Origin: Quercus robur
Lineage: Eukaryota > Streptophyta > Magnoliopsida > Fagales > Fagaceae
Direction: 5' to 3'
NCBI RefSeq assembly: GCF_932294415.1
Contig: NC_065535.1
Span: 95,806,862-95,870,861, forward strand
Length of the DNA: 64,000 bases
Under the pieces are notes generated by a model. It was given only the letters and a program-made list of their open reading frames with translations, made no database searches and was not told the origin of the DNA. How positions within the stretch are numbered: position 1 is the first letter of the stretch; each line of letters starts with the position of its first letter. Of this stretch, positions 28,763-53,213 are shown one piece after another. The translations under genes and the position numbers were made by a program.

Positions 28763-29416
28763 TTAATTAAATTCAAAAGGCATAGTGGCAGCAAGTGAAG
28801 TTGGACCCATAGCAATTTCGCCGTTAATGGAACCGCCGTCATCATCACCCGCAACATCGAAACGGACTTCCCCAGCGTATTGACCTCCCGTTGTATCACG
28901 GACTTCACCAACGGCAACATTGGCACGGACTCTCCTAGCAATTTCGCCGTTAATGGTACCGCCGTCATCATCACCGGCAACATCGAAACGGACTTCCCCA
29001 GCGTATTGACCGCCCGTTGTAACACCGACTTCACCACTGGCAACATTGGCACGGACTCTCCTAACAATTTGACCCCTGACGGTTTCGCCTCCATTATCAC
29101 CACGAACGACGTTGACACGGTTGGTAGTTTGGACATGGCGACCACCTCTGCGATTACGTTTGCACTTTCGTAAATACAAAAGTAGCAAAACAATGAGTGT
29201 CAGTAGGTATAACACTTTCCCAGCAAGATCAAGCTGCAACAGCATTTTTTCTTCACTGTTACCAAGGAAAAAAGAAATTGTATCAAAAGGGGGCCAAAAC
29301 AAAGCAAAAACAAAAACAAAAAAAAAAAAAAAAAAGATTAACCAAAGCTATTGTTCTGTTTGTTACCCGCTATAAGGTGGAGAGAAGGATGAAAACTTGG
29401 GTATAGATCGTCCCAT
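28763..29416 (-). CDS. SMP1: small single-pass membrane protein, two exons, unrecognised family
   Basis: Proposed exons 29416-29367 and 29255-28763 (180 aa). The start ATG at 29416 reads MGRSIPKFSSFSPPYSG; the donor is GCGG|GTAAC and the acceptor GGTAACAG|TGAAG, a phase-2 intron. Residues 31-45 (VLYLLTLIVLLLLYL) form one membrane span followed by RKCKR, so the C-terminal part probably faces the cytosol and the Cys may be lipidated (inference). Residues 82-123 and 124-165 are a 42-aa tandem repeat rich in Gly, Asp, Val and Arg (VRFDVAGDDDGG.INGEIA); a third, degenerate unit precedes them. Exon structure and the MG.S...EE..L...GK..YLL.L...R(K)CKRN pattern are shared with SMP2 (52844-53213) and the relic near 38.3-39.2 kb. 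No known family recognised. Two independent open copies with one intron position support a real gene. Confidence 0.6.
28821..29072 (-). repeat. 126-bp in-frame tandem duplication inside SMP1
   Basis: Two copies of a 126-bp unit start with CCGTTAATGG at 28821 and 28947. The unit is exactly 42 codons, so the frame is kept, and the copies differ at few positions, which implies recent expansion. SMP2 carries only one equivalent segment. Confidence 0.85.
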
Positions 29417-29581
29417 TCCAATTTGTTGATGAATTTAAAAGAAGTTTAGCTTAGCTTAGCTAATTCTCTTCTTAACAAAATGCTATTCTTTAGGTCTCCG
29501 CGCCGAGCAGAGCTCAATCTATCTGTGAAAGAGAGAGATATTTGATAATCTAATAAAACTTGAAAGCGAACGAAAAGGCTT

Positions 29582-29589
29582 CTTAAATA
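29582..29589 (-). promoter_or_regulatory. TATA-like box of SMP1
   Basis: TATTTAAG on the minus strand, about 165 bases upstream of the SMP1 start codon. It would give a leader of about 130-140 nt. The 483-bp tandem duplication begins right beside it. Confidence 0.45.
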
Positions 29590-30534
29590 GACGATGGTGA
29601 CTCAATTTGTCTTGTCATCCAAGCCGTTCATTTCTAGCGTCCACGCTAAATTTGACACATCTCAGCCGTTCATTTACGCATTCCCCACCACTGCTCCGTA
29701 CTTCCTTTTTTTTTTTTTGAGAAGTCCGTACTTCCATTTTTGGAAGTATCCTTTTCCACATTTAAATCAAATCACCATTAGTCAATAGTCATTATCATGT
29801 GCAATACATAATAACAAAAGAATAACGCATTTTGTTTTTGTTTTTTTGTTTTTTTTTTTTTTTTTTTTGCCTTTTTAAACGCGCACAAGAAAGAAGGGGG
29901 AAAATTTCGCATAAGAGTAACTTTGATTGCGTAAGGAGCAGGAAATTAATCTTAGAAAGTAAAATAATTTTCTTTTTTTCTTTTTTTTATTACCTTTTAA
30001 TTCTTTTAAATTTAAAAAGCCTTTAGATATTATTAATGGGATGGCCTAAGCCACGTATAAGGGTTTTCAAGAGACGATGGTGACTCAATTTGTCTTGTCA
30101 TCCAAGCCGTTCATTTCTAGCGTCCACGCTAAATTTGACACATCTCAGCCGTTCATTTACGCGTTCCCCACCACTGCTCCGTACTTCCATTTTTGGAAGT
30201 ATCCTTTTCCACATTTAAATCAAATCACCATTAGTCAATAGTCATTATCATGTGCAATACATAATAACAAAAGAATAACGCATTTTGTTTTTGTTTTTTT
30301 GTTTTTTTGTTTTTTTTTTTTTTTTTTTGCCTTTTTAAACGCGCACAAGAAAGAAGGGGGAAAATTTCGCATAAGAGTAACTTTGATTGCGTAAGGAGCA
30401 GGAAATTAATCTTAGAAAGTAAAATAATTTTCTTTTTTTCTTTTTTTTATTACCTTTTAATTCTTTTAAATTTAAAAAGCCTTTAGATATTATTAATGGG
30501 ATGGCCTAAGCGACGTATAAGGGTTTTCAAGAGA
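29590..30534. repeat. 483-bp tandem duplication upstream of SMP1
   Basis: 29590-30072 and 30073-30534 are almost identical, including poly-T runs. Differences are a roughly 28-bp extra piece in the first copy, poly-T length and very few substitutions, so this is a recent event. Both copies lie immediately 5' of SMP1 and could duplicate its upstream control region. Confidence 0.9.
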
Positions 30535-30585
30535 AAAAGACGCGTATAAATTTTTTTAAGGGTGCTGGTAGTTCATCTCAGCCGT

Positions 30586-31492
30586 TCATTGATAACGAAT
30601 AATTTTATAAAATAAAACAACACTCACTGATTCACATAGTAATACTTCATTAGTTAAGTTGTCAGATCCTTACATATTTCATTAGCTTAAACTTGTTAAT
30701 AAGTTATGATGGTGTCTAAAAAAATACCAACTCCTTATTCGTCCATTCAGGTCGTCCATGTAAAAGGTAAGAGTGAACTCTCGTCCTTAGTCCACAAAGC
30801 ATAAACCACCCGTATGTCGTCCACAGAAACCTCTGGACAACGTCTACTGACTGATGGACAAATCTCTCGTCCAACAGCACTTAGGACGATCCCAACAGGA
30901 GTTTTGACATAAAAAGATAACTGCCGTAGCGGTTATCAAGTTATACGCTCCGGGCTCCGTGAAAAAGGAGGGAAGTTATCCAGGGGATAACCGTTTCCTA
31001 AACCTATAAAAGGGAATAAATCTCCGACAAGAAAATGGGAGGTATTTTCTTTCTTTTCAGACACTATATTTCTCAAAAAGGAGAATTCTTTCTTTCACAA
31101 GGCTAACTTCATCATCGGAGGATTTGTGACCGGCCAACCCTGGTCTTCTCTGATTTCTTATTTCTTACATTTCAGGCCCTTAACACCAATGTGATCCGTG
31201 CTGTTCAACTATCTGATCGTTATCAAGTTACTTCATTAACTTATTATTTTCCTAAATATAATAAAATCATGAGGTGCTAATCAATTAAACTACGAAACTC
31301 CTAGCACACACTTAAATAAGATTTAGCAAGTCATGTGCAATGCACATGTTAATGACCTAGTTGTAGCCTTTTTTTTCTTTTCTTTTTTTGAGAAAAAAGA
31401 TAAACAAATTTTATCGATAAACTAAATCATTTTAAAATACATCATCCAAATCTAGTGAAAGATCTTATATCCACACATTAAGATCTGCAAAT
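30586..31492. repeat. Repeat copy interrupted by a solo LTR (paralogous to 34972-35382)
   Basis: 30586-30706 plus 31226-31492 align to one continuous stretch at 34972-35382 (ACTTGTTAAT, CTTCATTAAC, TAAAATCATGAGGTGCTAAT, ATCATCCAAATCTAGTG). The second copy lacks the LTR. Confidence 0.8.
30707..31225 (+). mobile_element. Solo LTR of a gypsy-type retrotransposon
   Basis: 519 bp, TGATGGTGTC...CGTTATCA, flanked by the 5-bp target duplication AGTTA (30702-30706 and 31226-31230). It has a TATA-like box (CCTATAAAAGGG, near 31001-31012). Its 3' third has the layout seen in the Tat LTRs at 5638 and 15520 (TCGGAG, then CCGGCCAAC, then a CTTCTCTGA segment) but otherwise a different sequence, so it is a related but distinct family. 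No internal coding remains. It fits loss of the interior by LTR-LTR recombination. The paralogous empty site is near 35105. Confidence 0.85.
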
Positions 31493-31775
31493 TAAACTGA
31501 TCTTCTAGCAAATGAATGAGCTAGCTGATTACCCGCTTTTAATAGGCCTAAAACTCTAGTTTTGTAGAGCACTTGACAAATGACAGGTCTTTTGTATAAC
31601 ATGACCAAACCTGGTCTAAAAAGGTCTCTGATGATTGATAGCGTTAATAACGCTCCAGCTTTATCCTTCATATTCCACTTGATACATAACTTTTTTTACA
31701 AAGCTTATTGCTTGCTTCCACTAATTCCACATATTGTGGTAGCTGAATCTTCTAGCTAAGGTGCTGCGATGACAC
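31330..31775 (-). mobile_element. Decayed 3' end of a LINE (RNase H part)
   Basis: On the minus strand one frame reads KAGNQLAHSFARRSV and is followed by degraded VWI.DLSLDLDDVF-like sequence, as at the C-terminal RNase H of plant L1-type elements. The upstream frame is interrupted. The rest of the element is missing. Confidence 0.4.
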
Positions 31776-31779
31776 AACT

Positions 31780-32404
31780 AAAAAACACGCTAGTCACGAA
31801 CCACCACACCAATGCCAGTTAATGACAAATTAGAGAAAAATTTACTCTCACGTTTTATTTTATTTATTTTTTGCAATTTCCTTCTTCTTTATTTTGAATT
31901 AAAAAAATTAAAAAAAAAAAAAAAAAAAAAAAACACTCCTACTATAACTTCTCATCCATAGATTTAGGTACTACCATATATCTTTATTTTTTTCTAAACT
32001 GCAATCCAATTGCCAACCAAAAAAAACAAAAAAAAAAAATCAATAAATGTCGTCTCTTCTCTTCCTTTATTTCACTTTGAGGCATAAGTAGAGGTAATTT
32101 TCTTAATACTCAATCTTTTCTATATTTTCTTCCTTACATGTTTGTATGTTTGTCTTTAGTTGTTCAAAATTGAAATACTCTTTTATACTAAAGTTTGTGT
32201 ATATTTCAAATAGTCATTTTGTATATAGAAATACAAAGAAAGATAACTCTTTTCCACATAATTTGTATGGTGTATGTTGCAAGTGGCAACTGCATGACTT
32301 TCAAAATGATCTGTTTTACAATTGTTGAAAGTTATATATTATATTATATATTATATTAGATATGTGTTGTACCAAACCTGGATCATAGATTCTCGTTATA
32401 TCCA
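31780..32404. other. Intergenic, no gene seen
   Basis: AT-rich with poly-A runs (about 31908-31933) and a TATAT repeat near 32332-32355. No coding or repeat structure that I can name. Confidence 0.5.
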
Positions 32405-32660
32405 ACGGTGATAAATTACTGGTTAACGAAATGTGTGGTCATAATTAGTCAGATTCAATAAAAGCCTAGTGCTTTGAGATTCAAGCACAAAACTTTTCTT
32501 TTCCCAAACAGTTTTATGGGCAGTCAAACAAATCTTTATCACAAAGAAAATTCAAGGAAAAAAAAAACTATAACAGATGACATACATAGAATCGATACAC
32601 GCCACAGACCCACACCATGGCATCACGAAGCAAAAAGTAACTTTTAACCTCACCACAACT
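32405..32660 (-). pseudogene. eEF1B-gamma 5' fragment (intron 1 and degraded exon 1)
   Basis: Matches 22570-22790 and 27650-27840: the TAATTAGTCAGATTCAATAA stretch, then a GGCAACCAAACACATC-like stretch, then the sequence around the first ATG. Here the start-codon region reads ATG GTG TGG and has lost the usual donor. Confidence 0.5.
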
Positions 32661-32939
32661 AAACCAAACGCATGCTCTTAAAACTAAGGCAATCACGTTT
32701 GTAGTATCCATGGCACCACACAGGTAAAAATGTTGGACCCAGACCGCACCACAAATTAAATGTAAAAACTGTTGGACCAAACCAACCTAATCACGCGATC
32801 CCTTTCAGAACTGGAAGACAATTCACAATGGTCAATAGACTCAATACTAAAAAATATAAATTCCGTACCACAAAAAAAAAAAAGAGAATATGTATATAAC
32901 TTAAGACAATTGCAAAACAGAGTTTTATCAGCCATGCCG

Positions 32940-33110
32940 TAATGCTAGTGACAAACTTTTTTTCATAACAAATTTCACAATTATTAAAGTGATTGACTAT
33001 GAGTGATGGACACAATTGACTCTCATAAATCACCACTCACAATTAACCACTTTAACGATTGTAATTTTTTGTGAAAAAAAGTGTCCGTATTCCATAGCAT
33101 TATTGAGTTT
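32940..33110. mobile_element. Hairpin MITE with TAATGCTA ends
   Basis: The left half (TAATGCTAGTGACAAACTTT) and the reverse complement of the right half (TAATGCTATGGAATACGGAC) pair over much of the element, giving one long imperfect hairpin. A similar element lies at 42549-42733. Confidence 0.6.
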
Positions 33111-33399
33111 TACCTTTAGTGTAACTTCAAAATGCAATCCATTTGGTATCCCGTAATTTCAGTAGCTTATTTGCTAAACTTGTGACAAAAAAGATTTTTA
33201 AAAAAAGCTTCTTTTCAAAAAAGTGAATTTTTGCTATTATTTAGGTTCATTTTTATTATTGTTATTTGGGTTTATTTTTTGAATTTTTTATTCTTTTTTT
33301 TTTGGCAGTTATTTAGACTAATTTTTATTATTGGTGTTTGAGTTTTATTTTTTATTTTTGTTTAAAGTGTTAAAGGATCATGTTTGGGGGAACAAGATA

Positions 33400-33570
33400 A
33401 TTTTTGTAAGAAATGTTATTTCTATAACAATTTCATAATAAATCTCAAGTGACAAGTTGTTATCAATGGATAAAAAAAGTGATGTCAATAGTAAGTCTAA
33501 TTAAAAACCAATAATAGCTTACAATTTAAGATTTTCTTGGAAGATTGTTGTAAATATGTTATGGACATAA
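33400..33570. mobile_element. Probable hairpin MITE (ACAACA.TTT...AAATTTGTTGT type)
   Basis: Imperfect inverted halves around a central TTAAAAACC segment. Related stretches occur at 40095-40285 and 41025-41185. Ends are not clear enough to define target duplications. Confidence 0.4.
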
Positions 33571-34021
33571 GATTATTATATTCTTGTTGAATCTAAATTT
33601 TTGTGATTCTATTTGAGAAAGAGAGAGATATTTGATAATCTAATAAAACTTAAAAGCGAAATAATGGGCATGCCCCTAACCGCCTTAAAAAAAAAAAAAA
33701 CTGTTGGTGAGGAAACAGCTTCTTTATTCGTGTCATGAAAAACAAATTATTTTTGTATAGTTGATTATAGGCTATGAAGGTAACCAAAGTCAAACATTCA
33801 AATCCAATATCACAAACCATGACCTTTTCATAATTTCGTTTACGCTAATAACTATGTCTGTAGAAAGAAAATGTGATTATAGAAATAAAACTTCGACCTC
33901 TTCGCTTACTTTGGCTTTTTGATTCATCACAGCCATTCAATTAATTTGATCTAATGGCTCAGAAATTACACCTGATCAATTGCGAGAAAAAAACCAAAAA
34001 CACGTTTGAATGTAGAAAGGA
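33571..34021. other. Intergenic; includes a short SMP upstream remnant
   Basis: 33600-33665 matches 29520-29580 (GAGAGATATTTGATAATCTA), the leader region of SMP1, without any following SMP exon. The remainder shows no gene. Confidence 0.45.
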
Positions 34022-34030
34022 CACTTTCAC

Positions 34031-34807
34031 GAGTCCAAATCTTCTGTCTCACTTTCTCTACTCCACTCTATACTACACAAATAAAAACTTGCCAAATGTC
34101 TATCTACTTAATTAAATCCTAATTTTGGGGCTTCTTTATTTCGGTTACCTAAATTAAATAAATAAAGAAAATAAGAAAAACTCAACATTCAACACATCTC
34201 ACCACTAGTAGCACCACCTTCATTCACCGGAGCCACCAACTACTCTAGTCACAGCCATCCAGGTAAGGTACCATCTTGGAACTCTAAACAAAGCCAAGCC
34301 AAATCTAGGACCTTCAAACTCCAACAAAGTCCAATATTCTGTCATTCCTTTTCTCAGCTTTCTCAAGAATATGGTTGATTCAATCAGTTAAAAGTGGGTG
34401 GGTGGGTGATGTAAAATCTATAATAGTTTTCAAATAAAACTACTCTTATTTTTATTTTTTCTTTCTAATTGTACTACATTATATCTTTTCGACCTTTGGT
34501 TCCTGAGAAATAAAAACTTGTCATATCAAACCCTATATTTTGAGGTGCTCTTTGTGATGAGGAAAATCATGACCAAAATTTTCCGGTTCCGATGGATGGC
34601 TATGACTGAAGGTGTTGATGGCTCCAGCGAACAATGGTGGATGTGTCGACTTTTGGGTTTTTTTTATTTTCTTTATTTATTTAATTTAGGTAACTGAAAT
34701 AATAAAGCCACAAAATTAGGATTTAATTAAGTAGATAGACATGTGGCAAGTTTCTATTTGTGGAGTATAGAATGAAGTAGATAAAGTGAGACAGAAGATT
34801 TGGACTC
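34031..34807. mobile_element. Small Mutator-like element with long TIRs
   Basis: 777 bp. GAGTCCAAATCTTCTG at the left pairs with CAGAAGATTTGGACTC at the right, and the inverted match continues inward for about 220-235 bp per arm. The 9-bp target duplication is CACTTTCAC (34022-34030) and CACTTCCAC (34808-34816), with one mismatch. The inner ends contain Ser/Pro-like coding-looking DNA around 34205-34265 with a CAG|GTAAGG donor-like site. A captured gene piece is possible but unproven. Confidence 0.75.
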
Positions 34808-34971
34808 CACTTCCACCACAACAGGAATGGATCTTTTTTTTGGGTAACGAATCATTCACATCGAATCAGAAAACTAAAGGGAAATGACACAAGTGGAAGG
34901 GGGCAGGAAAGGAGCATATTAAATATGCGATCATTAATAATGTAAACAAACAACTATACCAATAAAAAAAT

Positions 34972-35382
34972 AATTTGATAGTGAATAATTTTATAAAATA
35001 AAAAAATAAACAAAACAATACCCACTGACTCACATAGTAATACTTCATTAGTTATGTTGTCAAACCCTTACACATCTCATCTTATTAGCTTAAACTTGTT
35101 AATGAGTTTCTTCATTAACTTTTTATTTTTCTATATATAATAAAATCATGAGGTGCTAATAAATTAAATTACAAGACTCCTAACACACACATAAGTAATA
35201 TTTAGCAAGTTATATATAATGCACATGTTAATAACATATGTTAGTCGTCCTAGTTGTAGCCTTTTTTTTCTTTTTCTTTTATTTTTTTGATAAAAAAGAT
35301 AAGTAAATTTTATTGATAAACTAAATCATTTTAGAATACATCATCCAAATCTAGTGGAAGATCTTATATCCACATATTAAGA
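34972..35382. repeat. Uninterrupted paralog of the solo-LTR target
   Basis: Aligns with 30586-30706 and 31226-31492. The insertion point (ACTTGTTAATGAGTTTC) has no LTR, so it serves as an internal empty site. Confidence 0.8.
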
Positions 35383-36177
35383 TCAATTCTTAAATTTTTT
35401 AATCTTTTAATTATTTAAATGAATTCTTAAATTAGTTTTAAAAGAAATCTTAACCCTTAGATCAATTTTTTTTAACTTTAATTTTTTTTTTTTTTTATCA
35501 TGTGTGGTAATTACACGTTACACTGCACAGGATTAAAAACCCAATAGAACTATCCCAGCAGGTCAAAAGACAAAGATGAACTATGTCTATGAGAGTATGA
35601 GGTCCCGAGCTGAGAAAAAAAAAAAAATTAAAAACAGGTAAAAGTGATTGGTAAGAAATACATGCAAACTAAAGTGATTGGTTACATTCAAACAGGTAAC
35701 AGTCATGTCTTCGCTTAAAGAAAGACGTCTTTCTCGGTCTCACCTACCAAAAGTCGTATCCGCCTCAAAGTAATTTTCAGAAAATTCGAATAGTTGTATA
35801 AATAAATATGAAAAGTGACTAGGGAATGGTGGTCCAAGCGCTGCAAGAGCTAACACAGGTTTATCTACTTATGAACAGCTGGCAAAAGATGAATGTTTAT
35901 TTTCTGGTTTCTTCTCAAAATTGCAATAATACTCTAGTAATATTGTTTGTATTTTTTTTAAAATACGTGTGAATAAAAAAATATGTAAAAATAGGTGTAA
36001 TGTTATTTAAAAATTGAAAACATGTGTTTAAGATGCTCTATCAAACGGGGCTTAATTTTTCAGATTGTAATGTGAATTGGAGGATGTTTCACCACCTATT
36101 TTTTATGTACTTCAAGCCAATAAGGCAATCTTGGTTTAACTATTTATGAAAGTCTTGTTTTTCAAAAAAAAAAAATA

Positions 36178-36220
<43 letters not shown>

Positions 36221-36560
36221 AACCTATGAGTATGAGCTTTTGGGAGAGCAATGAGATTGACAGATGAGAGAACCAAACAATGAGTTTTCTACGGAGCCAA
36301 TATGCATAGGTGGAGAAAAAATAGGGGGTTTATGTGAAAGTGGCAAATAGTCAATCACAATTTAACACGTAAGATAATTATGGCAATTTGTGTGTAGTAT
36401 AACTTACCCCACCATTTCTTAAAAGTTACTATGACTTTTGAGTGAAAGTGTGGTGTAACTTTATGTTAGAACCTTTTTCTCTCTCCCTTATGTGTGTGTT
36501 TGTTTCTCAAAAAAAAAAAAAAAAAAGACTAGGAAAACTAGTGGCAGCATCCCTCAGAAA
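35383..36560. other. Intergenic; second copy of the 16.6-17.2 kb block
   Basis: 35383-35830 and 36260-36310 match 16755-17245. Between them lies AT-rich DNA with an (AT)n(GA)n microsatellite (about 36177-36220). No gene seen. Confidence 0.55.
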
Positions 36561-36599
36561 AAAATAATGAGAGAGAGAAAGAGAGAGAGGGAGGGAGAG

Positions 36600-37435
36600 A
36601 GGCAATAGTATCAAATTATCAAATAATGGGGTAGCGTAGGATAATTGGGATCCTTCAAAAATGGCTGCGATTGGGTTCAACGAGCCGACTTTTTATTATT
36701 ATTATTTTTTTATAAGAATGAGCCAAGATATGAGTTCCATATTAATTAGAAGACTTTAATAGCACTTGATTTCTTCTGAATTTATGATTTCGTTTGGTAC
36801 TAATTAATTGGTTAAACTTATCAAAAAAAAAATTAATTGGTTAATGAAGTTTGGTTATATGGATCTTGTTGCAAGGGTTATGGTCCCATGGAACATATTT
36901 TTCTTTTTTCTTTTTTGATGAATATGGAACATATATAGTTTCTTGGAATCCAAACATTATACTAATAAAACTTGGAATGCCCAAGTTCCTCATATACACA
37001 AATTCTTCAGAGCTATTTGTTACACAAATTTCTTCTTTCTTTCTTTTTTTACCTCTTTTTTTTTTTTTTTTTAATTTATTGAGAGGACACAAATTCCTCT
37101 TTATATAGCAATGGCATGATAACAGCTGAATAATACCAACACAAATTTGTCATCATAATATAACAATAATAGCCCAAAAGGCTCGTGAGTTTCAACTTCT
37201 CTAATATTTTGTGTAACTTGATGTACAGGTGGAATTTCCAACTTCTTATCATATGCATAGCCAAATTACAATAATTTAGAACATGGTGGTCTTCTCCTCA
37301 GCAATTTCTCCAATAGTATTTTAAGCAAAGTAAATAATAAAGCACTTTAACATAATTACTCGTGAACAGTGACTTTAATTGTATGTTTACAATTGAGTTT
37401 AGTATAACCGCAAACACATTATTATCTAGATCCTG
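36600..37435 (-). repeat. Block Z, copy 1: four-copy unidentified block
   Basis: Shared with 48500-49140, 53830-54600 and 57360-58700. On the minus strand, a TTAATAAACAG acceptor in two copies is followed by a short frame reading NTIGEIA(E/R)EK.TMF-stop, and then AT-rich sequence with a conserved TTGTGTTGGTATT segment. That could be a last exon plus 3' untranslated region. I do not recognise the protein end, and the longer hydrophobic frames across it are not conserved. Confidence 0.4.
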
Positions 37436-37650
37436 AACAAGTCCCTAGGTGTGAAAGGGGCAAACTTAAGGAGAGAGAGAGAGAGAGAGAAGAAAATAGG
37501 GGATAGTGGGGTAACGTGGAATGTGGAGTCCTTCAAAAAGCAGTAGGTGACAATGATGGATTAGAATCATTAGACTTACAAGAGATATGAGTTATGGGTT
37601 AGACTTATGGCCACAAGATATACAACTTTCATAAAATAAAAATAAAATAA
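37436..37650. repeat. GA-rich piece (copy of 1-350 and 58705-59080)
   Basis: Begins AAGTCCCTAGGTGTGAAAGG and runs through (GA)n to a GGGTAACGTGGAATGTGGAG segment. The same piece precedes block Z or the RRP42 relics at three or more other places. Confidence 0.65.
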
Positions 37651-37980
37651 ATTTAAAATAAAAATAAAAATTTTAAATAGGAATATTACTTATGAATTAT
37701 GATATTTACATAATTTTTGTCACGAATCCCCCACATACTGGATTGTGAGTAGTAAAGAAAAAGTGATAAGTATATATAGGTCTATATCTCTACCACTAGG
37801 ATCAGAGTCAGGAATTTAACTTTGAGGGGCCAACTCAAAACTATCATACTAGCTTTTACTTGTTCTCTTTTAGCCTCATGCCCACTACTGACAAAATTAA
37901 GAAAAAAAAAATTGAATTGCAAATTAATCAATATATGTGGAGAGAAACTAGCTTAATGGCAGCACCAAGGGCATCAAGCA
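37651..37980. other. Intergenic, no gene seen
   Basis: AT-rich DNA between the GA piece and the RRP42 relic. Nothing recognised. Confidence 0.5.
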
Positions 37981-38310
37981 TATTCCCGTCTAAACAAACA
38001 ACAAGACAATCAATATAAAAATCCCAAAATATTTCCCTCAAACAACTATTAGAAATAAGAGATCAATTCCAGCTCCTGGGAAAGATAAAGAAGACCTATT
38101 TATTCACTTCAAGCCAAGCAAGAGCCTATAATAAAAATACAAATTAGCGGACGACCTGCAAAATGATAGAAAGCATATGTAGGGCAATAAATTGGTTGTA
38201 ACTTCTCTTGTTCTGATTAGATTCATACCAGCTCCACTTTTAGTAACCAAGAGACGATTCTTAAGAGAAACTGAGAGTTCTGCGGAGTACGGACAACTCC
38301 TTACCCGCCA
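37981..38310 (-). pseudogene. RRP42: RRP42 fourth-exon relic
   Basis: Aligns with 46560-46880. On the minus strand it shows a degraded KSGAGMNL motif with EL(S)...S upstream, corresponding to the EELS.ELS..L..CLLG.KSGAG region of RRP42. Frames are interrupted. It directly follows the SMP3 relic. Confidence 0.45.
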
Positions 38311-39173
38311 CTGGTATCACCGTCAGCATCACCGGAGGCATTGACATGGACAGTAGTTTGAACACGGCCACCATTTCGTTTACACTTGCGTAGTGCAAAA
38401 CAGAGGAGAACAATGAGGGGCGGAGCAACATGTTAAGGTGGGGGGCCCAAAATTTTTGATTTTTTTTTTTTTTTTCACTATATAGAAATATTTAATATTT
38501 TAATAATTAGCCCTCAAAAATGGGACTTGGCCCCTCCAACTATTTGAGTTGGTCCAATAATGTTCTTAAAAAAAATTATCCAATTTGTCTAGTAGTTATA
38601 GAGAATGTATTGTTTCTCAAATTCATTTTTTATGGTAAAATGTGTTCTCGTATTTTTTAAAGTTTTAGATCATTTATGTCTTTGAACACTTTATTAATTT
38701 AATTGAATTTTTTTTACTCACAACGGTAGACAATTTAGTAACTTATATTGAAAATGAAAATTGTAAGGATTTCACTATGAAAGATGGTGAGAGATTAATT
38801 TAATTCTATGAAACATTTAGTTTAAGGATTCATTATGAAATATACTAATTTTTTGTGTGTGTATTGATACATGTGTTTGTGTATGTGTATAAAAGTTTGT
38901 ATAGACTAATAAATTAGCAACACAAATCGCTCTCAAACAAAAATTTCTGGCTCCGCCCTGAGTCAATGAGGATGAGGAGGTATACTATTTGCCCAGCAAT
39001 TTTTCTTCCCTATGTAAACACACAGAAATTGTATCAAAACCGGGGGAAAAAAAAACACAAACGAAGAGGATTAATTGACCATATAGACATAGGATATAGC
39101 TATTGTTAGTTGTTACCCGTTGTTGAGAGAAGAAGGGAAGTATGAAAATAGCTTGGACATGGAACGTCCCATT
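38311..39173 (-). pseudogene. SMP3: membrane-protein relic split by a hAT-like element
   Basis: Exon 1 (ATG at about 39173) reads MGRSMSKLFSYFPSSLNNG and keeps the GG|GTAAC donor. Exon 2 has GEEKLLG then IVYLLILI; it lost about 15 bases in the L.YLD.GG segment, and is interrupted between the membrane-span halves by the element at 38416-38960. It resumes with LCFALRKCKRNGG and VQTTVHVNASGDADGDTSGG, then a stop. Same two-exon layout as SMP1 and SMP2. Confidence 0.6.
38416..38960. mobile_element. hAT-like non-autonomous element inside SMP3
   Basis: Ends AGGGGCGGAGC and GGCTCCGCCCTG form imperfect TIRs of the CAGGG.CGGAGC kind. Flanks share CAATG(AG) on both sides, consistent with an 8-bp duplication that has diverged. 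SMP2 gives the uninterrupted arrangement. Confidence 0.65.
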
Positions 39174-39271
39174 TTATTTGAATCTGATATATGAGTTGAG
39201 ATATGACCATTCATGTGTACATATATATATATACACAATGTGACTTGTGAGACGCTGAGAGACTCGTTTAT

Positions 39272-42168: not shown

Positions 42169-42205
<37 letters not shown>

Positions 42206-42483: not shown

Positions 42484-42548
42484 TTAATGGTGAATAAATG
42501 CAAGCAGGGATTTCTAAATAAAATTCAAGTCTCGTTGGGCAATTTTTG

Positions 42549-43335: not shown

Positions 43336-44023
43336 CAACATTCAACATTTGAAGCAAGTCCAGCAGATTATGTATCATTAGAAGTTTCTTTAACATAATT
43401 CATAAGAGACAAATGTTACATTGAAGAGAGAGAGAGAGAGAGTCGATTCAAAAATAAAATTATCTACAGAGCATGAATCCATTATCCATGGAGTGATTAA
43501 TACAAAAGAATCTCCAACGTAGGCGTGACAAATTTTTGGCCTTGGCTGATTAGGAGATAAATCTTCCACCTAAGTTTGAGGCTTACAGGAATCATTTCAT
43601 TTCCCACAAATAATGGCCTTACATTAGTTAGATGAATACAAGGACTTCTCTCTATCAAACACTTGAATTTCTGACAGTGGCTAAGTAGTTCTTAACGTGG
43701 CTGTAGGCCTAAGGCAAATAAAATGTTTTTGATCCCTTCTCTGCCAGATTTTCCAATTATACCACACTTGTAGGCCATAGTTTCATACATTTCATCCCTC
43801 CTTCCATGGGATTTCCAGGCTTATGGCGTCTTTAAAAGCTTTAGCCTTAGACATCTTGATCCCTTCTCCCATGAATTTCTGGGTTTATCATGCCTGGCTA
43901 TACCTCTACACTGTGTAACTCATATTGTGCTCTAGATGAAAGCGTTGGACTTATCAATGCTGAGAGTGAAAGGATGAGAGGAAAGAAATTTTAGTAAATT
44001 TTCATATTGCCATATGTAGTGAA
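43336..44023. other. Intergenic, no gene seen
   Basis: One short GA tract (about 43422-43442). No conserved frame or repeat recognised. Confidence 0.5.
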
Positions 44024-44545
44024 ATTGAAATCAATGTGTCTGATTTGATGGAAACAAGCGAAATACTTTTACCACTAATTGAAGTGTTCACAAGTTGTGG
44101 ATCCTATCTAAAAAATGATGCAATATTTATTTTGTTCTCGGATCAACAGTCTAAATATGACATACAGAGACAAAGAATGATAAAGAAATTTCTAAACACA
44201 ATTTTGTGCTTAGGTTGATGTTTTCATTTTTTACCCTCAAGAATTTATCAAATATAAGTATATAACCAAAAATATAAAAGTTTTGATCTGTAGTGGAATT
44301 GAAATCAATGCGTCTGATTTGATGGAAACAAGCTATATACCTTTACCACTAATTTGAAGTGTTCACATGATGTGGATCCTATCTAAAAAATGATGCAATA
44401 TTAATTTTGTTCTTAAATCAACAGTTTAAAAATAACATACAGAAATAGAGAATGATAAAGAAAATTCTAAACACAATTTTGTGCTTAGTTTTGACGTTTT
44501 CACTTTTTACCCTCAAGAATTTATCAAATATAACCCAAAATATAA
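44024..44545. repeat. Direct duplication of about 245 bp
   Basis: 44024-44260 and 44292-44535 align in the same orientation (GAAATTGAAATCAATG, GATTTGATGGAAACAAGC, CCTCAAGAATTTATCAAATA). Divergence is moderate, so this is not recent. Confidence 0.8.
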
Positions 44546-44947
44546 TGTTATGTTTAGATGTTGGGGGAAGGAGGGGGAGTAGAGTAAAGGGAGAGAGAGT
44601 AATTTAATTACCTTGTTTGGATGTTTTTTAAGGAAGGGGGGGGGGGGGGGGGATTTGGAGGGGTTTGAACTACTTTCAACCCCTCATTTTTAATTCCCCA
44701 AATTGGAGAGATTTGGAGGAAGAGTAGAGCATAAAAATGCTTGACCAAATGAATTATCAAATTTACCCTTACTATTTTAACAAAATTACAAATGAAAAAA
44801 CTAAATATTCCCTTCCCCCTTACCTAATTTTAAAAACATCCAAATAAGGTGAAGGATAGCCATTCCCCTCTACTCTCCTCTCCACTACTCTCCTTCCCTC
44901 TATTCTCCTCTACTCTCCTCTCTCTCTCAAAACTTCCAAACATAGCA
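44546..44947. mobile_element. Harbinger-like MITE, 402 bp
   Basis: Flanked by TAA (44543-44545 and 44948-44950). Ends TGTTATGTTTAGATG and, reversed, TGCTATGTTTGGAAG are TIRs, and GGAG/CTCC-rich subterminal regions also pair. A G-run lies near 44636-44652. The nearby paralog at about 44275 shows the same flank without an insertion. Confidence 0.7.
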
Positions 44948-44950
44948 TAA

Positions 44951-46180
44951 ACGTTTTGATCATTAGGACCAAGAAACTAATAAATGCAAAACAAATAGGT
45001 TCACCTTAAAATGAGAAGCAAAATAAGAAATACTAGGAATAATCAATGTTACCACCATGCACCCTCGGCGTGATAGCTACTCTACAAATACAAAGTTCTT
45101 AAGGGATGGGAGGGGACAAAGGTCAGGGTTCAAGTTTTTAGGAGAGAGCTTTACACATATAAACACTTAGATTAAATTAGAGTAAAATTTCTTTGTATAA
45201 ATACATAAAAAGGGAGAAGAATAATCAACGTTCTGATTAATAGATTATCTTAAGACCTACCATCTCAAAACCAAGCATATGATACTAAGAATGTTCATGA
45301 ATAGAAATAATTAAATCAAAGACATATAATGGCTGTAACAGCAAGATAATAGTTACATTTTTTAGTCAATGAAGAATCATGGCAATGCCTATCACAAGAC
45401 TGAATGTCCAAACTTATCAAAAGATAAAAAAATATTGCACTTCAAAGTCTTTGCTATATTGCTATTACTAGACTACTGACTTCAAGTCTACAACAGAGAC
45501 TTTACTGTTCAAAAAGATTGCAACTTAAAAAGGTTCAAATTAATATGCACGCACTCATGATCTCCTCAAAGACAAAAACAAAATAATTAAAAGCCTTGTA
45601 TCTTGGGGCCACCCTTAAGGAATTCCTCTCTATACCTGGTGTGTGTGGGTCGGGATAATTACATAAACCAGAGAGTTGAGATACTAAAAAATATCTGCAT
45701 ATCCTCGTTTGTCCAAAAAAAAAAAAAAAACTCTATTGGACCAACCCCTGCATTGATGATTATATGTTTGTAAAAACTCCATATTGTTTTAGTAATGGAA
45801 ATAATCACATATAAATAGAAAACAAGCGGAAAACATGTGACAGAGAATTGATACGCAGAACTAATACATTATAGCTAACATTAATAAGAGGACTATGAAG
45901 CAGGACATACCACCCCAAGTGACATCATCTGCTGAAAGAATGTGCATTTCTACAAAGACATCTGCTTATCTTCGTCTGATTACTGCAAATACAAATTATA
46001 CACCAGTTTTTTGGATAAATAATTCAGAATTATCACAGAAAATATTTTAAGTGAAAACTTGTGTTGACTTGCAAGTTACAGCAGGTCCTCTTAAGAGTTT
46101 TTGAGAAAGAAGAAGATAGGGGGTTAAAAAAATACACAAAAGATGCATAAAATGGTCACTTTTTAAATTAGAATTTAGAA
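44951..46180. other. Intergenic, no gene seen
   Basis: Low-complexity AT-rich DNA. No exon, repeat pair or element ends recognised. Confidence 0.5.
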
Positions 46181-46189
46181 ATAATACTT

Positions 46190-48130
46190 CATCTCCCATT
46201 AGCTTGTGTCGTATGGCATTGCCGATGCAATTTCTGAAAATGAGAACTGCAATTTCAATTAGCTTAGCCTAGAAATGAGACACAAGAGACGATTAAAAAG
46301 GCTGAGAATATTACTTAGGCCATTATTGATATGGTCCAACCCAGCCCAAGTAACAAAAATAATTCCATTAGCCAAAAGGAATGGAAACTAAAATTATTCT
46401 AATTATGGTTTTTTTTTTTTTTTGAGCTTAGAGTTTAAGCTCAAAAACTAAATGATCATGAGGAATTTGAGCAGGGCATAGCAGTCTCCATGCACCCAAA
46501 AAAAAAAAAAAAAAAAAATGAAGGTAAAAATTTGAGCGGGGCATAGCAGTCCCTAATAACGTTAGCAAAAATTTGTTTATAAAGACAATCAATATAAAGA
46601 TCCCAGCAAATTTTTCCAATACAACTATTAAAGACGAGAGATCAATTCCAGCTCCTGGGAAAAATTAAATAAGATATTCAATTCAAGCAAAGCAAGAATC
46701 TATAATCAAAAAACAAATCAGAGGACGAACTGCCAAAAGATAGAAAACATATATTGGGCAATAAATTGGTGGTAACTTCTCTAGCTCCCATTAAATTCAT
46801 ACCAGCTCCACTTTTAGCACCCAAGAGACAACACAGAAGAGCAATGGAGAGTTCTGTGGACAACTCCTCACCCTCCTCTACCCTAAGTAAGGTATAAATC
46901 CAAATTAGAAATATATATAAAATATATGAACTATGAAGAAAATTGGCAATAAGACTAACTCTTCCCCATTGTGCCATGATTGAATTCCAACAGCTATTTC
47001 ACATAATGAAATGTTTTTTTTTCTTTTTTATATTAAAAAAGGGGTCAGTTTTTTTAGCCTAAAATGCCAGCTTATTTTCACCACTACATCTTTTTTTTAA
47101 ACTCACTTTTTCTAGGAACAACTGTACTTTTATACACCTTATTGTTTAAAACAAAATAAGCTCAGCCAAACAAAATAAAAATAATACAATCTCAAACATT
47201 GGTGCTGCAGTTGGACTGCAATCAACAAGTATGGCGACCTTTCCTTTGTCAGGTTGCAACAAACTCAGCCTTCCAAGTTCAGCCTGCATTTACAAAAATT
47301 AGTAGACAACATTACAAGTATTCACAAAACACAGGAGGAAACTGCTTAGTGTAGATATGTGTTGAAGATCCAGCATCTCGAACCATTATATACCTTCACA
47401 CTGGAAATAACATCTGTTTTCCCCAAACTGATTCTTGCTGAACCATTTGCCTGCAATTAACTCCATGAAAAACATAAAAACCAGCAGAAAAGTTCAGTTT
47501 TCACAAAGAAAGCAGGTCAACGCTGATGTAAAAGAAATTAATTTCCACGTTTACATGAGGTAAACTACTAAGCAAATCAAATTAGACTTAATTCTAATTA
47601 ATTGGTTTTGGCTATACGAATCCTTTTCCTGCATCAGACTATGTTTCAATAAAGTATATGAAACGAACGTTATACCAGGGGTATAACTCCAGTTTCGACA
47701 TAAATAGGACTGTAAGTTAATCTTTTTCAACCATCAGAATGAAGGCCTTGAGCAATGCCACCCTGTATGAAGTGCTCTTCTCCTAGAGAGAGTCCCACCA
47801 TTCCTGCACATACATAAATCAAAAAGAAATAATGGTTGCAATGTTATATATAATTAGAACTTGTAAATAATGGGAGAAGATATTGAAAAGAAAAAGAAAA
47901 AAGGAAGGTACTGGGAGAAACTAGAGGAACAGCAATATTGCTGAAGGAAACCATTAGGTGTTAAAAAGGATGCTACCCTTAACAATAGTTCCTAAAGTCA
48001 AAAAGAAATTCAAGTCTTTTATACCCATGTTTTGTTAAGGAGAAAGAAGACCCCTTATTGGCAGTGGAAAAAAAAAAAACCAACAACAACAACAGACACA
48101 TAAGTCAATAAAACCAATTTCTTTATTAAA
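46190..48130. repeat. Third copy of the RRP42-bearing duplicated region
   Basis: 46190-46600 aligns with 1430-1920 and 61020-61500 (GCTTGTGTCGTA, GGCCATTATTGATATGG); 47170-48130 aligns with 540-1400 and 60050-61000. The internal order differs from the two arms, since the 46190-46600 piece lies on the other side of the exons. Confidence 0.7.
46750..47801 (-). pseudogene. RRP42: RRP42 relic, best-preserved copy (four exons)
   Basis: Exon a 47801-47676 starts MVGLSLGEEHFIQGGIAQ and ends KRLTYSPIYVETGVIPL with donor CTG|GTATAA; exon b 47450-47394 reads ANGSARISLGKTDVISSVK; exon c from 47283 reads AELGRLSLLQPDKGKVAI, then LVDCSPTAAPMFE; exon d from 46882 holds GRGG, then EELSTELSIALLCCLLGAKS and GAGMNL. 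Exon borders follow GT-AG and exons a and b are in phase 0, so this came from a genomic copy and not a retrocopy. Lesions: a TGA where family members have Arg in DGRKRL (exon a) and an extra base after GRGG (exon d). Later exons (the second half of the RNase PH fold) are not found. RRP42 is a ring subunit of the RNA exosome; this copy is unlikely to make it. Confidence 0.75.
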
Positions 48131-48499
48131 AGGGCATGAACAATGTGCTCCTTACAAAGATCATTTCTACAACCAGAACTGTAGTAAACTTGTGTCTATA
48201 AATATTTGCAATATTTCCTTTTATTTGGCCAGAGCATATATGTATCAAGTAATACTTTGGTAGATCTCCCATAAAAAGCCTCAAAACAAGGACATAAGTG
48301 AAGGGAAAATGGAAAGAAAAACTAAAGAGGGAATGGGAACAATATGGTATGCCAGAGGGATTCAGATGCTTCATTAGCAATATCCATAACAGTCTATTGC
48401 TTTGCTAAGTTTGTAACAGTTAACTGGAGTAATTGATTTTCTAAGGAAAAGAACATCATATGTAAGGGGGTTGAGTGCAAAGGTTGGAATAAAGAACCA

Positions 48500-49140
48500 C
48501 TTGATTTCTTCTAGGTTTATGATTTCGTTTGGTATTAATTGATTGGTTAATTATGTTTGGTGATATGGATCGCATTGCATGGTATATGGAACTTATATTT
48601 CAGTTTCTTGGAATCCAAACAGTATACTAATAAAACTCAAAACCTTTATAAAAAAACACATTCTTCAGTTACTTGAAATCCAAACAGTATAATAATAAAC
48701 CTATAATATACAAGTTCCTCATATGCACAATTCTTCAGAGCCATTTGATCCATGAATTCCTCTTTATCTGGCATGATAACAGCTGAGTAATACCAATACA
48801 AAATTATCATCATAATGTAACTAGAACAGCCCACAAAGCTTGTGAGTTTCAACTTCTCTAATATTTTGAGTAACTTGATGAAAGGGGAGAATTGCCAACT
48901 TCTTAGCATATGCATAACCAAATTACAATAGCATAGAATATGTTGGCCTTCTCCCCAGAAATTTCTCCAATAGTATTTCCTGTTTATTAAGGCATCCAAC
49001 AATGGAAATGATAAAGAACTAACACATATTAGAGCTAATTACTCTTGACACAGTGGTTTTAATCATATGTTTACAATTGATTTTAGAACAACCACAAAGC
49101 CTAACACAAACAAATTATTATCTAGATTCTGCGTAAGCAT
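48500..49140 (-). repeat. Block Z, copy 2
   Basis: Matches 36780-37430, 54100-54560 and 57540-58690. Here the candidate terminal-exon segment is altered (no NTIGEIA frame). An open frame of about 118 codons lies here, but it is not conserved in the other copies. Confidence 0.5.
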
Positions 49141-49149
49141 CTACAGGAC

Positions 49150-50680
49150 TTTTAAAAATAATAATAATAATTTTAAAACAAGTTTTGTTATTACTATGCC
49201 ATTATTCAAGTTCATCAGCCTCTAAGGGCTTACAAATGGACATTCTAGCTAGTGTAGTCCCACCAAAATTTGACAGTTCACGAATGTATACAGGGTTTTG
49301 AAAAAAATGCCATTGAAAGAAAACTAAAATAAAAACTTATAGATGGACAGAGCAACCATCAAAATTAGCGTGTATTTGGATGAGTAAATTTTTTTTTTTT
49401 TTTTTTTTTGGCTTTTTTTTTTTATATATAGGTATTTTTATTGGCTTATTTGCTTAAAAATTTAGCCAGGAAAACATAGAGCTGTACCAAGAAAAAGTTT
49501 ATATTTAAAAAGATGTACATAAGCTGCTGGTGAAAATAAGCTTGATTTTATGCTAAAATAAGTGGGCCCTTAAACACATAAGCAAACTTATTATACAAAA
49601 ATTTCTCAACAAACAAAATCAAGACTAAAAAAGAAAAATAAAAACCGTGATATGGCGGCAAAAAATCCGTGATATGAATATGTATTAAAAGTATTCATTA
49701 TTCTAGCAATCAATCTGGTTTCAAGTTCAACAGTTCAAACAGCCTAAGCAAAGCCAATCGCCAACTAAAACCACCTATTCTTACGTTGTTCAGGGATCTG
49801 CTACTCAACTTAACTCCAAAAAGGTTTATTGCAGCAGGGTTCACAAGTCTGTTTCCACTTGACCACTATCTAGCCATGCACTACATCCTTAAATTTGATT
49901 TTGACATCAATATAATTCCCCCAAAAAAAAAAAAAAATCAATAGAACCCCCAAAATAATATAGCTAGTGCTCAGCAGCACAACTACTTTTGGTTTGCTGG
50001 AACTGCACCGAACCAAGTGCATTAATAAGACTGGTGATATCCCATGCCAACAATCTTTATTTGTTTATGTTATACCCTTATACCACCCTGCCACTTTGAA
50101 TCATCTCACTAGATTTACTCTACAATTTTTCTTTAATCCACAACCCAAAATCAAAAATGGCAGCTGTGAGAGTTTTAGAATGGCAATGAGATTTGAGGAG
50201 CCAAAAATCAGGACAAAGTTTTTCTCTAAACTGGGTTCAAGGAATGTCCTGAATTTCACTCACATAACTCCACTAAATAGGTTCTGATAGGGTAATGAAT
50301 TTACATACAACAACCACAACAACCAAACCTTAGTCCCAAAATTTTGAGGTCAGGCATGGATCCTCAACAGACTAGTCAGGTCGGCCGCATGTAAAATATT
50401 CCCACAAGTCTATTCTATCCAAAGCCATACTCTCTCTTACTTCCTTGATTTACATATACTTTTTTCGCGCTCTCGACTTAAATCAACTCACTCTTTGTCA
50501 CTGAAATTGACTTAATTGAATGATCCCATGAATCTGTGCAGAGTATACAACCATTTTATGCAAATTTGTAGTTTTTACTACTGTATACAAGAATTTGCAT
50601 AAGTAAATATTTAATTTTTAAGCAATTAACATCTCCAATAATTTACAGAACACCATCTACAAAGCTAAAATTTTAAGGAA
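49150..50680. other. Intergenic; part matches eEF1B-gamma flank at 63.78 kb
   Basis: 49235-49400 aligns with 63775-63925 (GGGTTTTGAAA, CATTGAAAGAAAACTAAAAT), next to exon 2 in the other place, but no exon is present here. A poly-T run and TTGGCTTATTT hairpin-like stretch follow. No gene seen. Confidence 0.45.
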
Positions 50681-50689
50681 AAATCATAG

Positions 50690-50950
50690 CACATCATATA
50701 ATATTAACAAACCAAGGTGTCTGAAAAACAAAACTTGCCGTGATATAGACTGTGTTGGTCGCCGGTGAATTGATGCCGGAATTTTTGTATTTCCGTTGGA
50801 GACGCAGACGAACGCTGACGCTGCCGGTGCTTCCGTGAGAGAAAGTAGAGAAGGAATTGGCGGGGAGGGGTTAGCAATGAATGACGTCAAGAGAGCAAAA
50901 ATCGTGGTCCGAAATCGCGTTTTCTGTGTGACTCGAGAGAGTTTATAAGT
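50690..50950 (-). promoter_or_regulatory. Candidate promoter and 5'-leader exon
   Basis: Less AT-rich than its surroundings, with TATAAA on the minus strand at 50942-50947 and about 230 bases of leader-like sequence (CCGGCGACC, CTCTCTCACGG). The open frame across it has no ATG near its 5' end. It lies upstream, on the same strand, of the RRP42 relic at 47801, whose first coding exon has its own 3' splice acceptor before the ATG. It may be that gene's old 5' end (inference). Confidence 0.35.
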
Positions 50951-51366
50951 ATAGGCCGTGGAATCATGGTCTCAAATCTCCATTTTTAAAAGCAAATAGT
51001 AAATTTGGCACATCTCGGTGCCTTCAACAGACATTTCCTCTATGGTTGAAGTTGAGGGAACGGAAGAGAAAGGAAAATGGGGTTGTTTCGACATACGAAA
51101 AGGAAAGGAAGTAAGGAATGATGAATATTTTTGTTTGGTATATAAAAGGATGGAAAAAAGAAAATGTGTATTTTTACATTTATGCCCCTTAAAAAAAAAA
51201 AGTAAATGGTAACATATTTTTAACCTATTAGGGGTATTTTAGTAATTTTATAATATAAAAATCCAAACTCATGTCATATCTTTCTCGAGGTATTGTGCAA
51301 ATCAGCTTCCTTCAACCATTCAAATTAGTTAGTTAGGCACGTTTTCAAACAATTTAGAAAACTAAC

Positions 51367-51670
51367 ATCTCGAGTTTTTGAAACTCGAGATCCATATTAG
51401 AACTCGAGTCTGAAAGACTCGCTTTATATCTCAAGTCTTTAAAACTTGAGTTTCATGCAAAAAAAATTTAACCTATAGTGGCGTTTTTAAGACTTACAGT
51501 GACGTTTTAAAACCCTATAGCGACGTTTTCCTGTAAAAAATTTTTTTATAAGTACAGGCTTAAGGAGTCCTATAGTGGCGTTTTTAAGCCCTATAGTGAC
51601 GTTTTATAGACCTATAGCGGCGTTTTTTGCAATTTATGAAAATCGAGTCTCTAAAACTCGATTTTCAGCG
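51367..51670. repeat. Cluster of hairpins and TATAG.G(A/G)CGTTTT repeats
   Basis: An 11-bp-arm palindrome (ATCTCGAGTTT / AAACTCGAGAT, 51367-51391) is followed by GAGTC/GACTC and CTCAAGT/ACTTGAG hairpins, then six degenerate copies of CTATAG.GGCGTTTT or CTATAG.GACGTTTT (about 51474-51625), then an AATCGAGT/ACTCGATT hairpin. The hairpin arms are variants of one theme with matching changes on both sides. Element type unknown. Confidence 0.7.
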
Positions 51671-51699
51671 CAATTTTTTTTCTCCAAATCGAGACTTAA

Positions 51700-52415
51700 A
51701 AAAAAAATATGACAATTAACTAAATTGTTTAATATTTATTGTTATTTTAAAAAAAAATTCTATCTTTCTCCCTTTCCCCCTTTTTCCCTCTCTTTCCGCC
51801 CAATAGCAAAATAGCTACTCTTCCTTTCTCCTCTTTTCTCTTCCTTCACCTCCACCTATCTATCAAATTATAATATGTGATAATTATTACTTTTTTATGA
51901 TTTATTTGGAAAGTCACACTTTTTGACAAAATACCCTATTTAAAGTCCCTTAAAAAATAAAAATAAAAATAAGGAAAAATGAACCCCAGGAAAAAATTAT
52001 AAACACAAACTTGAATTATATACTTGGGATAATCCTAAGATTAGCTCTGGGGCCCTACCATCGGAAAAGACATAATATTCTTTTTTTTTTTTTTTTTTTT
52101 TGGCAGGAAAAAAAATCTGTCTTCATATAGAAAGAAAAGCATGCAAAACCTGACACAACTCAAATACTAACCTTCGAACCTTTTACCAACCTTCGAACTT
52201 GGACAACTATACTTGCTACCCAACCACCAAGGATTCAAGGCAACAAAGAAGGCTGATATTTTATGATGCCATATTTTTAACAAACCAACAAAAATCAAAA
52301 ATGAAATTCTCAATAATAATTAAAAGCCTTAACATGAACGCTAAATTCCTCCGAAGGTAAAAAAGCTCCACGACCACTTAGATAGTAGTATGTTGGTAAT
52401 TAGTAGTTAGCAAGC
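51700..52415. other. Intergenic, no gene seen
   Basis: CT-rich and poly-T stretches (about 52081-52100). Nothing recognised. Confidence 0.5.
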
Positions 52416-52419
52416 CATG

Positions 52420-52500
52420 GTGGTATTGAGAGCTAGGGAATAGTTGAACCCATGAAGATTTGGCCGCCGCTGGTATCACTGTTATGTGCACCGGTTAGAC
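52420..52500 (-). pseudogene. SMP 3'-end fragment
   Basis: Matches the last coding part of SMP2 (52860-52930), including GGCCGCCGCTGGTATCAC, with several changes and no upstream exon. A leftover of a further SMP copy. Confidence 0.5.
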
Positions 52501-52843
52501 TCAGATAAACAAAAGTAGTCTTAATAAAAAATAAAAAAATAAAACAAGTAGAATTTGGATAATGAGTTGAACAATTTAGATCAGCCAATAAAACTGATTC
52601 AATCAAACAGAAAGTTTAACACAATACAGAAAGAAAAAGCTGCAAACCCTCAGTCTCACACACCTCAAACGCTAGTTCATAACACACCATTACATTTTTA
52701 TTTTTTACAAACCGACAAAGACCAAACATAGAAATCAAAATAATGACAACTATATTTTTATTTTCAAGGCATGAAAGCAGATTTCCTCCTCCAAAGGTGG
52801 AAGCTTCACGACCACTTAGACAGTACGTATATGTCTGTAATTA

Positions 52844-53213
52844 CTAAGGCATCGGGGTAGTCACAGTTAGGGAAGTTGGAATCACAGCGATTTCGCCGCT
52901 GCTGGTATCACCGTCATCGTCACTGGCGGCGCCATTGACACGGACAGTAGTTTGGCGACGGCCACCATTACGTTTACACTTGCGCAGTGCAAAAAAGAGC
53001 ATAGCAATGAGTATCAGAAGGTATATTATTTTCCCCCCAACGTCAAGGTACAACAGCAACTCTTCTTCTCTGTCACAAAAGAAAACTGTATCAACACCCA
53101 AAAATAAAAACAAACAAACAGAAATGACCGTACAATATATATAGCCATTGTTACCCGTTGAGAGGAAGATGAGGGGAGTAGGGAAATGGCTTTGGCATGG
53201 CAGAACCTCCCAT
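52844..53213 (-). CDS. SMP2: small single-pass membrane protein, two exons
   Basis: Proposed exons 53213-53155 and 53069-52844 (94 aa). The start reads MGGSAMPKPFPYSPHLPLNG. The donor is CAACGG|GTAAC and the acceptor GTGACAG|AGAAG, a phase-2 intron at the same place as in SMP1. Residues 34-48 (IIYLLILIAMLFFAL) are a single membrane span preceded by an acidic EEE stretch and followed by RKCKRN, predicting an outside N-terminus and cytosolic tail. The tail (TVRVNGAASDDDGDTSSGEIAV) equals one repeat of SMP1. No signal peptide or known domain. It sits next to block Z and a GA minisatellite, as other module copies do. Function unknown. Open frame, splice sites and TATA box all remain. Confidence 0.6.

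Follow-up and report, generated by a model that had tools for sequence, protein, structure and literature searches.

Gene models, relics and the C2 cluster

The 64,000-nucleotide stretch of the Quercus robur genome analysed here (the window; C2:95806862-95870861, contig NC_065535.1) carries two small genes, SMP1 and SMP2, which an earlier reading of the same letters (hereafter the original prediction) had presented as complete members of an unrecognised family of small single-pass membrane proteins. Both two-exon models were confirmed. SMP1 (28763-29416, minus strand) encodes 180 amino acids and consists of exon 1 (29416-29367, 50 bases), a 111-nt intron (29366-29256) and exon 2 (29255-28763), while SMP2 (52844-53213, minus strand) encodes 94 amino acids from exon 1 (53213-53155, 59 bases) and exon 2 (53069-52844), separated by an 85-nt intron (53154-53070). 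The two frames are open and have a GT-AG intron of the form common to their paralogues: exon 1 ends in GG, the donor reads CGG/GTAACA (the slash marking the splice site), the phase is 2 and the acceptor lies one base ahead of GAAGAA. Both products have an MG.S start, an EE..LL segment, one hydrophobic span and the motif RKCKRN, and the two genes are homologous, a tblastn search with SMP2 retrieving SMP1 at E 4e-17. The 34-codon core of SMP1 (29153-29254, minus strand) is made of EEKMLLQLDLAGK, the membrane span and RKCKRN. Further along the gene, the region encoding the tail contains two tandem 126-bp repeats (28810-29061, minus strand), in frame and 94% identical, each of 42 codons and itself made of two 21-codon units; counting the unit ahead of these repeats, the SMP1 tail comprises five such units in frame. 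A tandem duplication of ~485 bp (29575-30534, 91-97% identity) lies immediately upstream of SMP1.

A third locus, SMP3 (38300-39172, minus strand), had been described as a relic, and its lesions bear this out. Exon 1 (39172-39117) and the intron (39116-39010) have kept the donor and phase of SMP1 and SMP2, exon 2 has suffered a frameshifting 19-nt deletion and a 553-bp insertion with an element of 546 bp, and the broken tail runs into a stop and unrelated sequence. The inserted element (38418-38963, no strand assigned) looks non-autonomous, with inverted GGGCGGAGC ends and a 7-bp target duplication, CAATGAG, at 38411 and 38964. The 3' fragment of a fourth copy, originally noticed at 52420, is also real: it extends over 52412-52494 (minus strand), matches bases 288-368 of SMP2 (71%, E 2e-8) and sits in a tandem duplicate of the SMP2 3' region (52272-52485 versus 52699-52917). 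Two flank scars add to these loci, namely a copy of the SMP2 upstream flank (56651-56875, minus strand, 78% to 53218-53439) and a copy of the SMP3 downstream flank (46582-46879, minus strand, 80% to 38003-38312); the gene itself is recognisable in neither.

We searched the 786-Mb assembly, composed of 42 contigs, for further copies. The SMP2 DNA query found at least 10 places including itself, all on C2 between 95.558 and 95.860 Mb, among the best candidates scored. With the SMP2 exon 2 protein as query, 18 matches were obtained at E values up to 1, among them a previously unseen locus at 95.913 Mb and weak hits on C4, C5, C6, C39 and C40, and a profile scan of C2:95.54-95.74 Mb gave ten stretches over the inclusion threshold. 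The resulting cluster occupies 95.56-95.91 Mb of C2 (~355 kb), where nine open copies (E, F, I, J, K, L, M, SMP1 and SMP2) lie side by side with at least seven broken ones (A, B, C, D, G, H and SMP3), as expected of tandem birth and death; these counts are lower bounds, with 95.740-95.775, 95.785-95.795 and 95.879-95.912 Mb left unread. Models restricted to phase 2 introns with an NGAAGAA or NCCAGAA acceptor were sought by script at 14 loci; 13 of these gave one, and 12 of the models were open. Without the phase requirement, the open copies E, F, I and J and the broken copy A all came out in phase 2, likewise SMP1 and SMP2. The intron falls directly before EE in all nine open cluster copies, and the modelled genes encode 74-180 amino acids with a first exon of 50-101 bases.

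Individual copies depart from this common form. Copy A is broken within the span by a 2-base loss relative to F (as judged by eye), and D and H are short stretches that scored weakly in the profile scan (E 1e-5 and 2e-4). Copy M ends early relative to SMP1, uses a GTAAT donor and reads EEWKRN at the inner edge of the span. The number of 21-codon units, as read from the alignment, is three in M, one of them shortened, and one in SMP2, K and L. Of the motifs put forward originally, the MG.S start does not hold throughout, K and M having MR.S (two of the nine open copies), and RKCKRN is exact in SMP1, SMP2, I, K and L (five of nine) and is not general. The closest copy to SMP2 is L (C2:95798819-95799188, outside the window), with 95% identical DNA. 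About 7 kb around SMP2 (48528-55325) is duplicated roughly 61 kb leftward, at C2:95795001-95803000, with main pieces 79-94% identical.

Dispersed relatives and the predicted membrane-spanning core

Weaker relatives are found on C3, C4, C5, C6, C39 and C40. The C4 exon 2 query gave 23 matches at E values up to 1, seven in the C2 cluster and 16 elsewhere; 12 of these 16 were fetched, and C5:2295104, C2:35992284, C6:50916146 and C37:22239512 (weak) were left unread. The dispersed sites include C4:17471120, C6:35428374, C39:45344681 and 45359600, C40:42.69-42.83 Mb and 55.85 Mb, C5:1.61 and 1.83 Mb, and C3:6.30 Mb. Five of them could be modelled as two-exon genes with the intron directly before EE: those on C4, C6 and C39, and L038 and L039 on C40, phase 2 being again required by the script for the last two. 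In the case of L039, two longer and less plausible models outrank the two-exon one. The donor is once more GG/GTAAC on C4 and C6 and, by eye, in L041. No exon 1 was established for L033 (C5), L037, L040, L042, L043 and L044; L037 gave no exon 1 join and L033 no model under the script rule. The idea that L040 (C40) is an intronless retrocopy was abandoned, the bases ahead of EE resembling the end of an intron.

The first 34 residues of exon 2 align without gaps across 19 sequences, and the same 102 bases were cut from EE onward for a core set of 21 sequences. The best BLASTP matches between cluster and dispersed members (nominal database of 260 million residues, composition correction off) are C6-I at 9.6e-7, C5a-I at 3.5e-6 and C40c-E at 4.2e-6. 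Because hydrophobic spans inflate such scores, the shared place of the intron is the stronger argument for homology. Dispersed and cluster members have in common the 34-residue core with its E, LL, A and span, often followed by (K/R)xC, and, by eye, an I/V/L-Q/E-L stretch in the tail, whose ends also look alike by eye, unscored (QIAMGPTSL in the cluster, LELQPTSEYMN on C4, IQLPTLNTDD on C40). Where modelled, the dispersed genes differ from the cluster in a longer, Pro-rich N-terminus; the tails are shorter on C4, C6 and C39, and the C4 and C6 proteins are without the basic inner patch.

The Kyte-Doolittle maximum over 19 residues is 2.4-3.4 in all 12 open models; in the same models the 15 residues before the span carry a net charge of -1 to -4, and the charge after it is +3 to +7 in 10 of the 12. 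A net positive flank marks the cytosolic side of a membrane span (the positive-inside rule), and from the positive charge after the span we thus predict an N-terminus outside and a cytosolic C-terminus. The AlphaFold model of SMP1 exon 2 alone, run on the single sequence, has one confident helix over residues 2-36 (mean confidence of 95 and 93 in the blocks spanning residues 11-30), followed by a tail with a predicted local distance difference test score under 50 from residue 37. These data support the proposed family of small single-pass membrane proteins, nine open cluster copies and relatives on six contigs having kept the core from EE to the span.

Codon constraint and competing explanations

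A stop-free frame arose in 1 of 500 dinucleotide shuffles for SMP1 and in 8 of 500 for SMP2. Open frames by themselves are weak evidence of coding here, because over 28763-29199 a second minus-strand frame runs open through 144 codons and a plus-strand frame through 124, and because the SMP1 tail is a tandem repeat. Parsimony steps at codon positions 1, 2 and 3 of the core amount to 36/16/38 among the nine cluster copies (P 0.002 for the difference, position 3 less position 2), 57/34/51 among the 12 dispersed sequences (P 0.04) and 97/52/90 among all 21 (P 0.002). Such sparing of codon position 2 is needed to keep a span hydrophobic. We also fitted a codon model in which omega, the ratio of nonsynonymous to synonymous substitution rates, was taken from a grid (0.2, 0.35, 0.5, 0.7, 1, 1.5). 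Of the grid values, 0.7 fitted the cluster (nine sequences, 91 columns) best and 0.5 the core; omega 1, run with kappa (the transition/transversion ratio) fixed at 2, was worse by 4.6 log units in the cluster and 6.2 in the 12-sequence core, that is, by twice the log-likelihood difference (2 delta lnL) of 9.1 and 12.4. Pairwise omega against C39 and C4 lies between 0.24 and 0.58 (two values undefined through saturation), with 0.32 for C4-C39. Between SMP1 and SMP2 omega is 0.63 over the whole alignment, with a synonymous divergence (dS) of about 0.6, and SMP2 and L are separated by 5 synonymous and 8 nonsynonymous changes (omega 0.51). On this evidence the family has been weakly selected as protein, and some members may now be relaxed. 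The original prediction had taken the persistence of the frames as a sign of selection; omega values of 0.5-0.7 in the family agree with it, at a strength below the one implied, since the ratio is near 1 in some pairs and the tail repeats of SMP1 show no detectable constraint.

Homologous open frames that share the position and phase of their intron and show weak constraint at the codon level make SMP very probably a real protein family. We propose, at a probability of roughly 0.55 for the explanation as a whole, that SMP1 and SMP2 belong to a tandem birth-and-death family which is part of an older dispersed one, and that their products act in the way outlined here. The homology, the gene structure, the relics and the codon constraint on the core are facts of the comparisons described above; the remainder is read from the anatomy of the predicted protein. 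The two exons would yield a small protein whose short N-terminus, rich in Pro and Ser, leads through an acidic EE cap into one membrane helix, followed by a basic patch that usually includes a cysteine and by a Gly/Asp/Ser-rich C-terminal tail of variable length. Once inserted with the N-terminus out and the C-terminus in, the helix might pair with a larger membrane protein and the tail, flexible and cytosolic, might dock or tune a partner, while the length of the tail would shift by in-frame gain of 21-residue units. A role as accessory membrane subunit or adaptor would be the likeliest one, and is a tentative suggestion. Equally speculative is the view of the SMP proteins as fast-turnover N-out/C-in membrane microproteins, absent from Pfam, whose cytosolic tail was lengthened stepwise by units of ~21 residues; the series of one (SMP2), three (M) and five (SMP1) units could then represent a natural set of adaptors with a common anchor and different tails.

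Several observations weigh against this explanation. Codon position 3 alone is not clearly enriched in changes (P 0.05 in the cluster, 0.28 in the dispersed set and 0.11 together), and omega is 0.97-1.24 when E or I is compared with F or J (E-J 1.15, I-J 1.24). The SMP1-SMP2 ratio drops from 0.63 over the whole alignment to 0.33-0.34 only on hand-picked blocks, and both this value and the P value from neutral simulation are biased low, the blocks having been picked on the protein alignment. Recent constraint on SMP2 and L is not clear, because their best flank (94%, over 2.8 kb) is nearly as alike as the gene (95%); the other flank pieces are less alike (79-86%). SMP1 and SMP2 match dispersed members weakly, at best with E 0.049 and 2.7e-4 (composition correction off), and the charge of the C-flank is -1 in the C4 and C6 proteins, so that the topology rule is not universal. 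The 42-codon repeats of SMP1 differ by 2 synonymous and 5 nonsynonymous changes and, at omega 0.85, look neutral; their sequence therefore shows no sign of mattering. Finally, the suggested role is drawn from the anatomy of the predicted protein.

The alternative that best withstands these data, although we consider it rather unlikely, places the functional family in the dispersed genes (C4, C6, C39, C40) and regards the C2 cluster, SMP1 and SMP2 included, as a decaying tandem array with frames kept open solely by recent duplication. It would account for the presence of seven or more broken loci next to nine open ones, for several pairs with omega near 1, for the likeness of SMP2 and L being about that of their best flank, and for some older comparisons being more constrained, as in the C4-C39 pair. 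It is harder to reconcile with the sparing of position 2 among the nine cluster copies themselves, with the worse fit of omega 1 to that same set, with the other SMP2-L flank pieces, which fall below the gene, and with the age of SMP1 and SMP2, which have retained frame and splice sites at a dS of about 0.6. Less probable again is a fast-evolving defence or recognition family, in which turnover and omega near 1 would reflect an arms race and the tail repeats would alter partner binding: the ~355-kb tandem cluster of open and broken copies, the pairs near or slightly above omega 1 (E-J, I-J) and the tails of one, three and five units are what it would lead one to expect, but relaxed constraint accounts for the same ratios and the Pfam scans returned no known recognition domain. 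It is very improbable that the frames are open through composition and repeats, with no protein made: further frames are indeed open in the same SMP1 stretch, yet the exon-intron form is common to cluster and dispersed loci, changes are unevenly spread over codon positions and open frames are rare in shuffles.

If expressed, SMP genes of the birth-and-death family proposed here could easily be missed by standard annotation, given products of 74-180 amino acids, a first exon of 50-101 bases and no Pfam domain, and the cluster, its relics and the dispersed homologues would make birth, decay and tail growth traceable within one genome. The set provides a concrete list of loci for studies of expression and topology.

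Genomic surroundings and comparison with known systems

The window is a patchwork of duplications. The decayed "housekeeping" neighbours of the SMP genes are copies of eEF1B-gamma (Pfam EF1G at 6.8e-18, GST_C; PDB 1pbu), arrayed at about 2000-4060, 17558-28000 and 61700-63900. All of them had been called decayed; this is partly confirmed, stops or frame changes being visible in the copies compared, although one keeps an open C-terminal stretch of 140 amino acids at 17980-17558. No fixed link between SMP and eEF1B-gamma was seen: two eEF1B-gamma peptides from the window match nothing in C2:95.54-95.74 Mb at E 0.1, despite the ten SMP stretches there. In Arabidopsis, eEF1B-gamma genes may have small transmembrane neighbours (AT1G09645, AT1G57765). 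Literature searches on AT1G09645 and on tandem pseudogenes of eEF1B-gamma returned no paper.

A young long terminal repeat (LTR) retrotransposon occupies 5636-16017, with 500-bp repeats (5636-6135 and 15518-16017) of 99.6% identity, a gag-pol frame at 6188-11182 (gag, reverse transcriptase, RNase H, integrase) and an antisense frame at 14942-14073 with a weak Transposase_28 match, below the cut-off. An inverted repeat at 34031-34807 has 168-nt arms, 91% complementary, with 441 nt between them, and is perhaps similar to a miniature inverted-repeat transposable element. Another block occurs four times (36968-37384, 48646-49126, 54121-54565 and 58337-58711) and is present in the duplicated region of SMP2; one copy has an open frame of 130 amino acids with no Pfam match. 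Scans of the window for Rfam families (at gathering scores) and tRNA genes gave no match.

With regard to known protein families, the 10 distinct queries scanned against Pfam-A, either proteins or exon 2 peptides, had only matches below the gathering score, and a profile search of PDB sequences with the core gave no match up to E 1. The description of the family as unrecognised holds for these two sets only. A literature search on RKCKRN found no paper, and one on the oak genome and small transmembrane proteins listed none that was relevant. SMP homologues elsewhere may well be annotated as uncharacterised proteins. Two animal families, FXYD/PLM (PF02038) and SMIM43 (PF21976), resemble SMP in their one span, short ends and small size, but the scores of the C4 protein against them are below threshold (E 0.27, 11.1 versus a cut-off of 26.9 bits, and E 0.014, 15.8 versus 27 bits, respectively) and both were rejected.

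Tandem gene clusters evolving by birth and death are a known kind in plants. SMP resembles them in its tandem copies, relics, segment duplication and low constraint, and differs from them in that the Pfam scans found no nucleotide-binding leucine-rich repeat (NB-LRR), kinase or other known domain. In our view SMP is a family of small single-span proteins that has no name yet and turns over in tandem.

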